Below are positions 58,375-64,000 of a DNA stretch of 64,000 nucleotides, piece by piece. The translations under genes and the position numbers were made by a program. The notes beneath the pieces were generated by a model that made no database searches, was not told where the DNA came from, and saw only the letters and a program-made list of their open reading frames with translations. The stretch spans positions 558,001 to 622,000 of the forward strand of contig NZ_FNKN01000002.1 of assembly GCF_900102175.1 (NCBI RefSeq), written 5' to 3'. Numbering within the stretch: the first letter of the stretch is position 1; every line of letters starts with the position of its first letter. The stretch is from Microbacterium sp. cf332 (lineage in GTDB: Bacteria; Actinomycetota; Actinomycetes; Actinomycetales; Microbacteriaceae).

Positions 58375-58605
58375 ACAGGGCGGCGGCGGGAACCCGAAGC
58401 CTGCTCCATCGGGGCTCGCACGCGCCGCGCCTACGACGAAGGGATGCCTGACGATCTCACCCTGCCGAAGATGATTAATCACTCATTTTGTCGTGAGCTG
58501 GTTCACGCGGTCGCGGGCGATATGTAACGTGAAATGACCGTCAATGCACCGGGACGTAATTCCGCTCGGATCATCCCGGTCGGCAATTTACTCGAAGGAG
58601 AGAGA

Positions 58606-58977
58606 ATGTCCCTCACAAAGAAGATTGCAACGGGTCTCGGTGCTGGCCTCCTGGCCGCTTCCGTCATCGTCGCGTCGCCCGCTTCGGCCTCGGAGGCCGA
58701 AGCTCAGCAGGCGTCGGCCGCGGTGGCACCGGCGAACACCACCCACTCGCTCTACGTCTCGCATGCCGAGGTCGAGCGGATGTACACGGGCATGAACGAT
58801 CTCGGCTCGCTCTGCGCAGTCGCCCCCATCCCGTATCCGATCAGCATCGCCTGTGCCGGTTTCGCACCCTCACAGGCCATCGAGCAGGCCTATTGGCAGG
58901 AAAAGCGCGTGCGCGTCGATTACACGAGCTGCGGCTTCAATTACTGCAGCTCGACGAGCTTCCACGTCGTCGATTGA
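58606..58977 (+). CDS. Small secreted four-cysteine protein, unknown function
   Basis: A 123-residue precursor, start ATG at 58606 after GAAGGAG. A clear Sec signal (MSLTKKIATGLGAGLLAASV, cleavage near ASPASAS) is followed by a mature part of about 93 residues. It has four cysteines (70, 83, 109, 114), probably two disulfides, and Tyr-rich patches. Base composition is lower in GC than the neighbours. I do not recognise a family; bacteriocin-like, adhesion or signalling roles are all possible. It stands alone with its own promoter region (TATGTA at 58521). Confidence 0.75.
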   Translation: MSLTKKIATGLGAGLLAASVIVASPASASEAEAQQASAAVAPANTTHSLYVSHAEVERMYTGMNDLGSLCAVAPIPYPISIACAGFAPSQAIEQAYWQEKRVRVDYTSCGFNYCSSTSFHVVD

Positions 58978-59095: not shown

Positions 59096-59878
59096 TCAGG
59101 CCGGAGCGAGCCGGCGCGTGTTGGCCCGGACGGAGGGAAGCCGGCGGTGGTGGACGACGAGTTCGCGCAGGGCGCTCACCCGCCGGCGGACGCCCCAGAC
59201 GCTCACCTTCCACAGTGACTCGCGGACGATGTTCCCACTCATCTTGCTCTCGCCCCGTTCGCGTTCGATGAAGGTGATCGGCACCTCGACCACGTGCAGC
59301 CCGCGCTCGAGGCCGCGCCAGAGCAGATCGAGCTGGAAGCAGTACCCGTGCGACTCGACGGAGTCCAAGCCGATCGCCTCGAGGGCCTCCGTGCGGTACG
59401 CGCGGTAGCCGCCGGTGGCGTCGCGGATGTCGATGCCGAGGGCGAGGCGAGCGTAGACGTTGCCTCCGATGCTCAGCACCTTGCGGTGGAACGGCCAGTT
59501 GACGACGCTGCCGCCCGGCAACCAGCGGGAGCCGAGCACGATGTCGGCGGACCGCAGCTCGCTGAGCATGACGGGCAGGGATTCCGGCTGGTGCGATCCG
59601 TCCGCATCCATTTCGACGAGGACGTCGTACCCGCGCTCGCGGCCCCAGGCGAAGCCCGCGAGATACGCGCGCCCCAGGCCGTCCTTCGCGGTGCGGTGGA
59701 GGACGTGCACGCTCGCGTGCCGGGATGCGAGACGGTCCGCGAGATCTCCGGTGCCGTCGGGCGAGGAATCGTCGACGATGAGCACGTCGGAGACCCCGAC
59801 GGCGAGGACGCGGTCGACGATCCCCTCGATGTTCTCGACCTCGTTGTAGGTGGGGACGATGGTCAGCGCTGCGTTCAT
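59096..59878 (-). CDS. Polyprenol monophosphomannose synthase-like GT2
   Basis: A 260-residue family 2 glycosyltransferase of the DPM1/Ppm1 catalytic type. Motifs: [35 protein letters not shown], the metal-binding [15 protein letters not shown] and [13 protein letters not shown]. No membrane segments, as for actinobacterial Ppm catalytic domains. It would transfer mannose from GDP-mannose to polyprenyl phosphate, feeding GT39-type or lipoglycan mannosyltransferases such as the one at 62516. Start ATG at 59878; an ATG at 59893 is possible. Confidence 0.9.
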
Positions 59879-59910
59879 CTGGACGATCTCCATTCGGGTG
59901 GCAACGATTC

Positions 59911-59940
59911 GGGCGGTTCGGGGCGGTTCGGGGCGGTTCG
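59911..59940. repeat. 10-bp tandem repeat, three units
   Basis: GGGCGGTTCG occurs three times head to tail (59911-59940), preceded by a partial unit. It lies in the 70-bp gap between the sortase-fusion gene and the GT2 gene, just upstream of the GT2 start on the minus strand. It could vary by slippage and shift the spacing of the promoter or leader. Confidence 0.85.
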
Positions 59941-59948
59941 GGCAGGTT

Positions 59949-61556
59949 TCAGGCGGCGATCGCGGTGACGACGATGTTGTCCTCGTACAGGCCGGTCTCG
60001 GAGCTGATCGGTCCGCCGCAGGTGACGAGGCGGAGCTCCGGCGTAGGTACCGGCGCATAGATCGATTCGGTGGGGAATCCGTGCTTCTTCACGCTCTGCA
60101 TGCTCGTGACGACGAATTCGGCCACGGACCCGTCGCTGCGGGACACCGAGACGGTGTCACCGGGGCGCAGCCGGGGGAGGTTGTGGAAGATCGCCGGGGC
60201 GGTCGGTGAATCGACGTGGGCGGCGATGACGGCGGGTCCGACCTCGCCCGGAACGACCCCGTCCTCGTACCACCCGACGTCGTTGTAGTCGGCGGGCGCC
60301 TCGATCCAGCCGTCCGCGCCGCGCCCCAGCCCGATGAGGTCGGATTCGAGGCCGATGGCCGGGATCGACACGTGCACGGGGACCGCGTCCGAGGCGGCCT
60401 CCGCCGGCACCGGATCCTGGAACGCGCCCGCACTCGAGCTCGACGACGCTCCCGTCGCCGAGCTCGACGACGGCCCGAGCGGGGGACAGCCCGCGAGGGC
60501 GTCATCGGTCAGCATCGCCTCGGCGAGGGCGTTCCAGGCGTCGCCGTAGTATGTCGGCGTTCGCGCGGCGGTGTCTCTCATCCGCCCGAGATCGGCGCCG
60601 GCATCGTCGGTGCGCCCCGCCGCGGCATAGGCGGCCGCACGCGCCGCGTAGGCGACAGGGTGCTGATCCGTCGTCACGGCACCCGAACCCGAGTCGAGCT
60701 CGGCAGGCAGCACGTCGTCGCCCGGGAACGCCGTCGCCATCGTCGCCGCGAGCTCGGCGTCGGCGGCGTCGCAGGACTCGGCGTACCGGATCGGTGCGCG
60801 GGCGGCGTCGTATCCGAAGCCCGGCTCGCCCGTACCGTCCGCTGCGCCGGCGATGGCCACCGACCCGTCGGTCGCGACCGTCGCCCAGTTCGTCGGGAGC
60901 GCGTTCGCGTCCAGCAGTGCCTCGGTGGCGGCGCGACTGCCCTCGGCGAGCTCGTCCCAGCGCTCGTCGCCCGACGCGTCCGCCAGCACCGCGTAGGCCG
61001 CGGGCGATGCGTAGGACGGGTTGTACGCGTGCGGCGATGCCGTCGCCCACGTGCCCGGGAGGAGGATCCGTCCGAGATCGGTCGTCGCCGTCATCTCCTC
61101 GAGCAGCGCGTCGCCGAGGGCGAGTCCGTCGGCCGACAGATCGTCGCGGCCGAAGGCGTCGCCGGCCAGGACGAGGGCGCGCGCGGCGTCGAGGTCGGCG
61201 TCGGATGCCGGCTCGTCGTCGACGACCGCCCCGTCTTCCCAGCGCCAGGCGAGCAGCAGGTCGTCGCGCTGGAGGTTGTCGGTGGTCCAGTCCCAGATCT
61301 CGTCGAATCGGGCTTCGTCGTCGGCGACGACGGCGAGCAGCAGGCCGTACGCCTGGCCTTCGCTGACCGTGTCGCCGCCCTGGTCGGTGCGGACGACACG
61401 CCCCCCGTCCACGTAGGTATCGAGGAACGCGTCGGCCGCCACCGTCGCGCCGGTATCGGATGCGGCGCCGTCGGTGACCGGCCCGGAGCACGCCGTCACC
61501 GCCAGTGCGATCGCGGCGCCCGATGCGGCAGCCGCGAGGAAGCGCGGCGCCCGCAT
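59949..61556 (-). CDS. Lipoprotein fusing a GH8 glycosidase to a class F-like sortase
   Basis: A 535-residue surface lipoprotein (signal LAVTAC, Cys23; ATG at 61556). Residues about 40-357 match family GH8: the catalytic acid motif [14 protein letters not shown] (Glu66) and the [11 protein letters not shown] motif (Asp119/Asp121). A Ser/Ala-rich linker (about 362-378) leads to a sortase domain, residues 393-535: [23 protein letters not shown] (His447) and LVTCGG (Cys513). The position where I would expect the catalytic Arg (Y-R-D-N pattern) reads YEDN with Glu525. The TGATG overlap with the DUF4397 gene couples enzyme and likely substrate. Such a fusion is, to my knowledge, unusual. Confidence 0.88.
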
Positions 61557-62458
61557 CAGGCGGTGTCCCGCGCTCCGCGGCGCCGCACAGCCGCGGTCGT
61601 GACGACGGCAGCCGCGAGCAGTGCAGCGGCTCCCACGAAGATGCCGGTCGGTGCGGTCTCGCTGCGCGCGGCGCCGCCGCCGCCGGTCTCGATGCCTCCG
61701 ACGGGCATGTCGGCGAGGGTGGCGGAATCGGTGACCGCCGTGGCCGTCAGAGCTCCCGACGAGGTGTCGAGCACGAAGAGGGTCGAGACCGAGCCCGCGG
61801 GCAGGTCCACTGCCGCGGTCGACACGTCGTCGGCGCCGGCGAGCTCGAGGTTCCACGACCCCGCCGCGACGGCGGCGTAATCCGTGGCCGAACCGGTCGG
61901 GACGTCGCGCGCGATGGGCCGGCCCTGTGCGGTGTCGACGCTCACCGTCGGCTCGACGGTCGACGCCTGGATGACGCGCACGCGCGCCTCCCCCGCGGCC
62001 GGGGCCGAGAGGTCGTCCTCGAAGACGACGGTCTGGAGGTCGGCGTTGACGCCGTACGCCGCGACCGTGACGGGGCCGCCCGCTGCGACGTCGACGGACT
62101 GCTGGACGATCGGCTCGGCATCGTCTGCCGCATCCGACGGCACCATCGAGACGACGTACGTCCCCTCGGCGAGCGGGATGTACGAGCTCACCGCACCGTA
62201 GGCGACATCGTCGAGCTCGTACACGACGGCACCGCCGGCGAGCGCGGTCATCTGCACGTCGACGGACTTCGTGTCGGGCGAGAGGTGCGCGACGCGGGCC
62301 CAGCCCCCGGGTTCAGCGGGAACGGCCGCGGATGCGGCGGGGGCGACGGCGATGCTGATGGCGAAGGGGATGGCTGCGGCGGCGACGACAGCCAGCCCGC
62401 GGATGCCTCGCCCGGCGGTGCGGGCGTTCGGGTCGAGGTGCGAAGTGTGACGAATCAT
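61556..62458 (-). CDS. DUF4397 surface protein, likely sortase substrate
   Basis: A 300-residue exported protein: a long signal peptide with a charged N-terminus (cleavage near ASA), then DUF4397 repeats (ARVAHLSPDTKSVDVQM, ARVRVIQASTVEPTVSV). The C-terminus has a sorting-signal layout: MPVGGIETGGGG, a membrane helix (GIFVGAAALLAAAVVTTAAV) and a basic tail RRRGARD. It lacks a textbook LPxTG. GAAAGGATC precedes the ATG at 62458. It is coupled to the GH8-sortase gene, whose sortase domain probably anchors it. Confidence 0.88.
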   Translation of the reverse strand: MIRHTSHLDPNARTAGRGIRGLAVVAAAAIPFAISIAVAPAASAAVPAEPGGWARVAHLSPDTKSVDVQMTALAGGAVVYELDDVAYGAVSSYIPLAEGTYVVSMVPSDAADDAEPIVQQSVDVAAGGPVTVAAYGVNADLQTVVFEDDLSAPAAGEARVRVIQASTVEPTVSVDTAQGRPIARDVPTGSATDYAAVAAGSWNLELAGADDVSTAAVDLPAGSVSTLFVLDTSSGALTATAVTDSATLADMPVGGIETGGGGAARSETAPTGIFVGAAALLAAAVVTTAAVRRRGARDTA

Positions 62459-62515: not shown

Positions 62516-64000
62516 TCAGGCCGCGGGGCGCGGCAGGAGTTCGGTGGGCTCGACGGGCGAGAAGGTCACGACGAGACCCGCGTCGCTGCGCTCCACGGAC
62601 AGCGGGGCGAGCGAGCCGGTGAGCGAGGTGAAGAATCGCAGTGCCGCGTCCGACCCCGCGGCACGTCCCCGGGCGTCCTCTCCGGCGAACGAGCTGATGA
62701 CCAGCTGCCGGTAGACGCCGGAGGGATCGCCCTCGAGCTGGGCGATGTCGGCGATGTCGATACGGCCCGTCGCGGCGATCTGCGCGAGGGACAGCAGGAT
62801 GCGACCGTCGACGACGCCGGCTGTCATGAGGTCCTGCTCCTCGACGGGCACACCGACATCGGGGTTGGTGAGGAGCTGCTGCCCGGCGAGAGAACGCGCC
62901 GCGTACAGGCCGTCGTCGGCTGCCTGCGCGAGACCGGACTGATCGCGGTCGATGTACCGGACCTCGACCTGCTGCGTGCCCTCGCCGAACGACGCCACCA
63001 CCACGCTGTTGTCGATCGCCTGGCGGACCGTCGGGAACTCGGTCGGGAAGGTGCGCATGGAGTCGGTGGTGACGACGTAGTCGTAGTCGCGCCATCCGTT
63101 GGGAGCGAGCGCCTGGACGTCGGAGTCGGTGTCGGCCTTGTAGTACCAGACGACGTTCTCGCGGCGGAACCCTTCGTCGACCAGGTCCACCCACATCGCG
63201 TCGTCGACGAGGATGCGGGCATCGCCCGAGGCGTTCTCGACCATCCAGGTCTCGGCATCGCGCAGCGGGCGATCGAGGTCTGCGAGCAGGAAGCCGCGCA
63301 GCTGCGTCGTCCACAGCGGGACGGCGGCGACCATCGCGACGACGAGCGCTGCGGCGATCCCCGCCCCGCCGATGCGTGAGAGCACCGGATGCCGTCCGCT
63401 GCGGGACCGGAGCCGTTCGACGGCGACCTGGCCGATGCCCGCGATGACGATGGCGGCGAACGGCAGCATCATGATGACGTAGGGCACGGGCAGATAGCCG
63501 CCCCGGAACATGAACGCCGTGAGCGCGAGCAGTGCGACGGCCCAGGGCCGCAGCCGCCGGACGAACAGCGCGGCGACCGCGGCGGCGAGGCCGGCGACGA
63601 TCAGGACCGAGTCGAGCTGCCACCACATCCCGACGGTGCGGGACATGAGGCTCTCGGGATCGAGCAGCGACCCGCTGCCCTCGCGGGATGCCAGCTGGAA
63701 GGCGAGCCCTTCGAAGAGGCTCACTCGGCCGGGGCCCGGCATGACCTCGCCCTTGACGAGGGCGAACGCGACGTACGTGAGACCCAGCAGTGCGAGCACC
63801 GACGACGCCACGGACAGCGTGTACCGGCGCGTGGTGCGGTCGGCGCCGCGCCACATGAACCAGGCCAGCAGCGGCAGCGCCAGCAGATACGTCTCCTTCG
63901 TGAGCACGGCGATGCCGAATGCGGCCGCCGCGCCGATGTATCCGAGCAGCTGCTTGTTGCGGCTCATGCCCAGCAGCAGCGCGGCGAGGAGCCAGGCCGT
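62516..64000 (-). CDS. GT39/ArnT-like membrane glycosyltransferase (partial, 5' end outside window)
   Basis: At least 494 residues of a polytopic glycosyltransferase; the frame is open through the window edge (TAWLLAALLLGMSRN precedes the first visible Met). About eight hydrophobic segments (GIAVLTKETYLLALPLLAWF, AVALLALTAFMFRGGYLPVP, VIMMLPFAAIVIAGIG) precede a long extracytoplasmic domain, residues about 250 to the end. The LTKE motif is typical of dolichyl/polyprenyl-phosphate-mannose-type transferases. The catalytic N-terminal loop is not visible. It may use the product of the GT2 at 59096. Confidence 0.82.
   Translation of the reverse strand, partial: TAWLLAALLLGMSRNKQLLGYIGAAAAFGIAVLTKETYLLALPLLAWFMWRGADRTTRRYTLSVASSVLALLGLTYVAFALVKGEVMPGPGRVSLFEGLAFQLASREGSGSLLDPESLMSRTVGMWWQLDSVLIVAGLAAAVAALFVRRLRPWAVALLALTAFMFRGGYLPVPYVIMMLPFAAIVIAGIGQVAVERLRSRSGRHPVLSRIGGAGIAAALVVAMVAAVPLWTTQLRGFLLADLDRPLRDAETWMVENASGDARILVDDAMWVDLVDEGFRRENVVWYYKADTDSDVQALAPNGWRDYDYVVTTDSMRTFPTEFPTVRQAIDNSVVVASFGEGTQQVEVRYIDRDQSGLAQAADDGLYAARSLAGQQLLTNPDVGVPVEEQDLMTAGVVDGRILLSLAQIAATGRIDIADIAQLEGDPSGVYRQLVISSFAGEDARGRAAGSDAALRFFTSLTGSLAPLSVERSDAGLVVTFSPVEPTELLPRPAA

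Follow-up and report, generated by a model that had tools for sequence, protein, structure and literature searches.

GH8 enzymes act mostly inside long beta-glycans. In the BcsZ and CMCax enzymes of cellulose synthesis operons, the GH8 fold, the catalytic motifs and a gene that adjoins one for a membrane glycosyltransferase resemble what we describe here for an actinobacterial locus. Class F sortases form the other half of the comparison, and a 2026 report describes their physiological role as unknown (PMC13251363). According to the same report, two class F genes of A. missouriensis adjoin proteins with a signal peptide, a TM segment and a basic tail without a known pentapeptide, which its authors put forward as possible substrates, and Actinoplanes lacking all four of its class F sortases showed no phenotype in the assays of that study (PMC13251363).

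We analysed a window of 64,000 nucleotides from Microbacterium sp. cf332 (contig C6, 558001-622000), in which a GH8 domain and a class F sortase are encoded as one protein. Compared with BcsZ and CMCax, this GH8 is lipid-anchored and fused to a sortase, its cluster holds no match at the level of BcsA, and its score is below the BcsZ cut-off. CelA of Clostridium thermocellum, the best structure match, is a free cellulase without a sortase. Like other actinobacterial class F sortases, the sortase half passes the family cut-off, has the catalytic His and the TC pair and adjoins a GVDTG-type substrate, whereas its membrane anchor precedes a GH8 domain of more than 300 residues and its linker carries a QDP motif specific to this cluster. 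The nearest counterparts are separate GH8 and class F sortase (SrtF) pairs of Curtobacterium, Frigoribacterium, Plantibacter and others, which share the core cluster and its order and whose domains are about 41-60% identical to those of the window in the aligned rows; there the enzymes are two proteins that each carry a membrane segment at the N-terminus, while the window has a single chain. In the titles and abstract starts of the open-licence literature we found no paper on a GH8-sortase fusion, nor any that joined DUF4397 or GVDTG with a sortase. Both domains are of known kinds and their fusion is new, although databases may hold the architecture unremarked.

A GH8 domain and a class F sortase in one lipoprotein

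The fusion gene lies on the minus strand at 59949..61556, and its translation runs without internal stop across 535 residues; the frame, Pfam and NCBIfam all mark it as a GH8-class F sortase protein. Its ATG shares bases with the TGA of the DUF4397 gene (TGATG). On the same strand, the chain opens with a signal peptide and lipobox recognised from the sequence (residues 1-23, LAVTA-C23, 61488..61556; the LAVTAC box is residues 18-23), followed by the GH8 domain (residues 36-362, 60471..61451; Pfam, alignment and structure match), a Ser/Ala-rich disordered linker (residues 363-391, 60384..60470; AlphaFold2 and alignment) with the QDP motif inside it (residues 380-382, 60411-60419), and the class F sortase domain (residues 392-535, 59952..60383; Pfam, NCBIfam and alignment). 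A single GH8-sortase lipoprotein of this length had been proposed in the initial annotation, and E66, D119, D121, H447, C513 and E525 are all found where it had numbered them. The domain search of both halves that it suggested gave matches above cut-off throughout: Glyco_hydro_8 (PF01270) on residues 50-339 with 117.3 bits (Pfam cut-off 24), Sortase on residues 397-532 with 71.6 bits (Pfam cut-off 26.6) and class_F_sortase (NF033748) on residues 386-532 with 170.2 bits (NCBIfam cut-off 166), the last model reaching 173.7 bits against the same cut-off in the search of the organism's own genome.

Third-position G+C is 0.86-0.92 in each 50-codon block and its phase is constant across the domain junction. 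AlphaFold2 modelling of the full chain with 44 sequences gave a mean pLDDT of 86.8 and a pTM of 0.66, with residues 365-387 below 50, a pattern expected of two folded domains joined by a flexible tether. A VIA-align comparison of the whole model returned only GH8-like barrels and thereby barely probed the sortase part; sortases are among the Foldseek matches of the same model (5k9a, 8.7e-8). Sequence searches of solved structures reached only distant sortases, with best E values of 0.034 and 7.8e-6. In the plasmid collection, the one match was 58 bases long and fell in a Halobellus amidohydrolase gene.

Regarding the GH8 domain, E66 (codon 61359-61361), D119 (61200-61202), D121, W104, W106, W224 and R253 are invariant in 81/81 rows of the GH8 alignment. 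D250 (60807-60809) is kept in 79 of the 81. Both the Glu of SEGQ and the Asp of YDAxR are present, and the latter motif aligns with its equivalents in 6vc5 and 1wzz. We take E66 to be the GH8 acid and D250 in YDAxR to be the base. Asp119 and Asp121, pointed out in the initial annotation, are thus conserved as well, while the general base is, judging from the aligned motifs, more likely D250 than either of them. Two Curtobacterium copies (L090 and L105) have Glu at this presumed base, and their GH8 activity is possibly altered.

The closest structure to the model is CelA of C. thermocellum (Z 37.9, rmsd 2.3 over 313 residues, 24% identity), and CMCax of Acetobacter (Z 37.0) and E. coli BcsZ (Z 34.3) are also near. 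A beta-1,3-1,4-glucanase (Z 36.9) and chitosanases (35.7) score on a par with the cellulases, ranks 1-8 spanning about 2 Z units, and thus the substrate cannot be named from the fold. In the PDB sequence search, Komagataeibacter and Acetobacter endoglucanases came first and all 13 entries below 1e-8 were glucanases. The domain scores 122.6 bits with the BcsZ equivalog (NF008305, cut-off 299); it may work like BcsZ, though it is not classed as one.

In the sortase domain, H447 (codon 60216-60218), T512 and C513 (60018-60020) are invariant in 109/109 cluster relatives, some species being counted twice, and all three, the catalytic His and Cys among them, are present in each of the 29 class F matches taken from other families across the phylum. 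The initial annotation had read Glu525 as the displaced catalytic Arg. This idea does not hold, as column 525 is variable both in the 109 relatives (V 38, T 31, A 14, L 11 and others) and in the 29 phylum sortases (R 9, L 6, E 4, V 3, Q 3, T 2, others 2). Column 527 is Asn in 109/109 cluster relatives and in 26/29 sortases elsewhere, and Arg in the other three, which makes it the likely seat of the classical Arg (SrtA R197 type). In most class F sortases examined this Arg is therefore likely replaced. R509, four residues ahead of the Cys, is never replaced in the cluster and occurs in 21/29 sortases elsewhere, being absent from all three with Arg at 527 and from five others; on the alignment, it may substitute for the classical Arg. 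The three with R527 (L144, L145 and L146) are distant class F-like sortases that carry Thr at 509 and so invert the pattern of most class F matches; their sequences suggest that the active-site Arg switched place within the class.

Recurrence and origin of the fusion

Alignment of the GH8 domain against species genomes gave 236 stretches and 196 relatives, the best 80 of which we refer to as named loci. The closest of them is Microbacterium radiodurans, with 88% identity over the GH8 region. A class F sortase match accompanies the GH8 at 79 of these best 80, the exception being a Geodermatophilus locus (L104), and at 22 of the 80 both are in one frame: 19 of the Microbacterium type, two in Subtercola and one in Herbiconiux. 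Among the other 58, separate GH8 and SrtF genes are found in 57, with SrtF downstream on the same strand; the gap between the two domains is 186-432 nt in 56 of them and 1129 nt in one (L052), where the polyprenyl-sugar synthase gene sits in between. The record of that locus (JASDDH010000002.1, 'Planococcus sp. APC 4015') bears a Bacillota name, yet it has the actinobacterial cluster and a G+C of 0.696, and the GH8 tree places it beside Antribacter and Microbacterium; its organism name is probably wrong.

Across the genus the cluster is patchy. The GH8 occurs in 25/247 genomes, fused in 19 and separate in 6, the fused genomes including our own and one that is 99% identical to it. Relatives of M. 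oleivorans or M. testaceum are among the carriers of the fusion. The family sample, counted by hand from the listing, has this GH8 in at least 41/398 genomes, three of them fused; the remaining 38 have a class F sortase match close by, within about 0.5 kb in 37 and at 2 kb in G040. The fusion is thus a joining of genes that are adjacent in nearly all other relatives examined. In this sense, the survey of the architecture that had been suggested shows a recurrent fusion.

The fusion arose in one or two events. On the GH8 tree (81 rows) two changes are needed, but a tree with a single fused clade cannot be rejected (p-AU 0.172). For four cluster proteins, a quick LG+G4 tree (75 rows; L039, L047, L078, L079, L104 and L110 were omitted because a gene was missing or cut) has one fused clade with SH-aLRT 93, its branch unstarred. 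The fusion may have a single origin. Given these two values, we do not claim repeated independent fusion.

Anchors were scored by a script for hydrophobic segments and lipoboxes. Separate GH8 proteins all (58/58) begin with a TM or signal segment and lack a lipobox, and the 57 separate sortases divide into 39 with a TM or signal segment and 18 with a lipobox. Among the 23 fused proteins (the window and 22 named loci), 20 have a lipobox, one a TM or signal segment, and two are unclassified. A Q-D/N/A-P motif precedes the sortase domain in 54/57 separate and 23/23 fused proteins, that is, in 77/80 cluster members overall, and a slightly wider pattern is matched by only 2/29 class F sortases across the phylum. 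Taken together, these counts indicate that the fused chain retained the linker of the sortase and lost its separate anchor.

The surrounding glycan cluster and its DUF4397 protein

Along the minus strand the cluster reads GtrA (PF04138), a GT2, a PMT_2-type GT-C, the DUF4397 gene, the GH8-SrtF fusion and a polyprenyl-phosphate-sugar synthase-like GT2. GtrA and the first GT2, a membrane glycosyltransferase with a QxxRW motif, lie at 64528-66623 in window numbering, outside the window. The PMT-like GT-C, a membrane glycosyltransferase with 7 hydrophobic segments (PF13231, Pfam), occupies 62516..64000 and continues to 64531, and the synthase-like protein of 260 aa is at 59096..59878 (Pfam, NCBIfam), all on the minus strand. 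Between the fusion and synthase genes, at 59909-59941, are three near-identical copies of about 10 bases. A scan of the cluster for promoters and terminators found none, and is uninformative as few are expected by shuffling. Beside the cluster, on the plus strand at 58534-58977, a 147 aa protein has a signal-like N-terminus and four cysteines, and Pfam gives nothing for it at E 1 or better. On the upstream side, immediately before the cluster at 66720-72891 (window numbering, outside the window), are what we take to be potassium uptake genes (kdpE, kdpD, kdpC and kdpB-like); the genes past the cluster are presumably sugar-uptake-like.

Five genes form the core, namely those for the QxxRW glycosyltransferase, the PMT-like GT-C, the DUF4397 protein, the GH8 and the sortase F. 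At the named loci (best 80 of 196), counted where the contig reaches, the GT2 is present in 74/75, the GT-C in 76/77 and the DUF4397 gene in 77/78, whether GH8 and sortase are fused or separate; this agrees with the DUF4397 neighbourhood suggested initially. GH8 and sortase occur together with all three in 74 of these best 80 loci, the rest being contig ends save L104, which is the true exception for GT2, GT-C, DUF4397 and SrtF alike. GtrA (54/74) and the polyprenyl-sugar synthase (60/78) are less constant at the same best 80, and a diverged GtrA might escape detection. Of 70 loci with full flanks, 49 have both, 16 neither and 5 one alone. The two are joint, optional travellers outside the constant core, and their joint gain and loss is as expected of a flippase-synthase pair. 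Among fused loci with full flanks, 10/18 have neither.

The cluster GT2 has D181, D231, D234, E322, D323 and QRTRW invariant in 75/75 rows, which we take to be the residues of a polymerising family 2 enzyme. It scores 23.7 bits with the cellulose synthase model TIGR03030 (cut-off 699.1) and is under the cut-off of all NCBIfam models listed, and hence no glycan can be assigned to it. Its closest solved relative is 6yv7.

The DUF4397 gene (61556..62458, minus strand; Pfam) encodes a 300 aa surface protein, modelled as mostly beta-strand, that we presume to be the sortase substrate. The best match of the model is the PepT2 extracellular domain (1.3e-9, 14% identity), which would reflect beta-sandwich domains and nothing further. 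The initial annotation had singled it out as the partner, and the gene product does carry a complete sorting signal: the motif PVGGIETGG (61679..61705; GVDTG_CTERM, NF058571, NCBIfam), then a TM helix at residues 273-291 and an Arg-rich tail with RRR, the helix and tail being assigned by hydrophobicity to 61571..61645, both features on the minus strand. The signal scores 33.1 bits, and 37.6 in the genome search, against a cut-off of 29. The pattern P-x-G/D/A-G/P-x-x-T-G is found in 78/78 cluster DUF4397 proteins (the window and 77 named loci). The C-terminal TM helix is present in 22/22 fused clusters versus 7/56 clusters with separate genes; the other 49 of the 56 have the motif, no TM helix and a short tail at the end, which is odd for a classical sortase substrate. 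As the fused set may be one lineage, the association of helix and fusion may reflect ancestry and not function.

Across the phylum (149 genomes searched), 11 genomes have GVDTG signals that pass the cut-off, 12 in all. When this listing and that of class F sortases were compared by hand, 10 of the 12, including that of the window, were found on the same strand as a class F sortase and upstream of it, at 1.3 kb or less. One of the other two is on the opposite strand within 1 kb; the second is at a contig end, and no class F match is listed on that contig.

In the genome of the organism itself, GH8, class F sortase and DUF4397 genes each occur once, and a lone GVDTG signal, that of the DUF4397 protein, passes the cut-off; two weaker matches, of 16.1 and 15.5 bits, fall below the cut-off of 29. 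A Pfam search adds a second sortase on the same contig (C6); it belongs to class E (235.2 bits, cut-off 160), and the DUF4397 protein could also be sorted by it.

Possible roles of the double enzyme

In our proposal, the fusion acts as a double enzyme, anchored by a lipid, within a surface-glycan cluster that is conserved in actinobacteria, and glycan synthesis, trimming and protein anchoring would meet at one spot of the membrane; we hold this to have about an even chance of being right. The QxxRW glycosyltransferase would make and extrude a glycan, probably beta-linked, and the GT-C transferase would decorate this glycan or a surface protein, fed in many species by the polyprenyl-sugar synthase and GtrA of the cluster. 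On the outside of the membrane, the glycan of the cluster would be cut by the GH8 in the way that BcsZ and CMCax act next to cellulose synthases. The sortase of class F, rather than that of class E, would cut at the G-[V/I]-x-T|G motif of the DUF4397 protein and join the latter to a wall precursor, and the surface protein would in this way be fixed at the site where the glycan is made. The fusion would hard-wire an older partnership, whose members are separately anchored neighbours in most relatives examined. The constant core genes, the conserved catalytic residues, the single class F sortase and GVDTG signal of the genome and the pairing of such signals with class F sortases across the phylum speak for this proposal. 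Against it count the low TIGR03030 score of the cluster GT2 and a better-scoring cellulose-synthase-like gene elsewhere in the genome, a GH8 fold compatible with several substrates and a score below the BcsZ cut-off, the Glu at D250 in two relatives, the class E sortase, the inconstancy of GtrA and the synthase, the missing TM helix in most separate-gene clusters, the Actinoplanes deletions, a possible single origin of the fusion and the patchy spread of the cluster.

Several other explanations have to be considered. A fusion that only sets stoichiometry and shares a lipid anchor, with GH8 and sortase working independently on substrates that have nothing in common except being required together, such as an environmental glucan for the former and a displayed adhesin for the latter, has an appreciable but clearly lower probability. 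The disordered linker, the separate anchoring of both enzymes in most relatives examined and the sugar-uptake-like genes that we presume past the cluster would fit such independent work, whereas the company of GT2, GT-C and DUF4397 with both enzymes in 74 of the best 80 loci of 196, and the presence of cellulose-synthesis-operon enzymes among the nearest GH8 structures, speak for a common task. It is rather improbable that the DUF4397 protein is glycosylated by the GT-C and that the GH8 trims protein-bound glycans before or after sorting. The PMT-type GT-C at 76/77 loci agrees with this, but a QxxRW GT2 suggests a polymer, and GH8 enzymes are known mostly for cuts inside long beta-glycans. The genome also has a cellulose-synthase-like gene at C8:544853-546883 (L172 3854-5884), with 335.9 bits for TIGR03030 (below its cut-off of 699.1) and 67.5 bits for Pfam Cellulose_synt (cut-off 24.7), an OpgC-type gene within 3 kb downstream and no GH8 beside it. 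Since the GH8 of the fusion is the only one in the genome, it could in principle serve this enzyme too. That it does so in the manner of BcsZ, with its place in the cluster reflecting only the need for the sortase, gains from the absence of a second GH8 and from a score with the cellulose synthase model well above the 23.7 bits of the cluster GT2; even so we consider it improbable, as the GH8 stays with the GT2 of the cluster at 74/75 loci of other species where the contig reaches.

The initial annotation had suggested that the DUF4397 protein is attached to a polysaccharide. The GH8 would then hold or cut the chain while the protein is moved onto an amino-sugar, giving a protein-polysaccharide conjugate, a proposal we regard as very unlikely. 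We find it just as hard to favour its fuller form, a single-chain conjugating machine whose GH8 would capture and cut nascent glycan and whose sortase, beside it, would transfer the DUF4397 protein with its GVDTG signal. Equally doubtful is its acceptor, which would be the nascent glycan or a lipid-linked form of it and would lead to a covalent protein-polysaccharide surface layer made at one site. All that speaks for it is that one chain holds both domains, together with the cluster context; nothing was found that points to a glycan as the sortase acceptor, and the glucanase YDAxR motif of the GH8 and its PDB hits below 1e-8, all glucanases, argue against it. We know of no sortase that accepts a sugar amine. 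Finally, a frameshift or assembly error joining two genes, which had been named as what would refute the fusion, is practically ruled out by its recurrence in 22 named contigs and in 19/247 genomes of the genus, by the open frame and by the even coding periodicity.

Returning to the proposed double enzyme of a surface-glycan cluster, a single class F sortase and a single GVDTG signal in one glycan cluster mean that few knockouts, with clear readouts, would be needed in this organism. The cluster could also be used to ask whether glycan export and the covalent display of proteins are coupled in actinobacteria. It provides a candidate sorting motif for class F, G-[V/I]-x-T-G, for which natural enzyme-substrate pairs number in the dozens. 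A GH8 that is fused to the sortase, or its neighbour, may be a route to the function of the poorly understood class F sortases.
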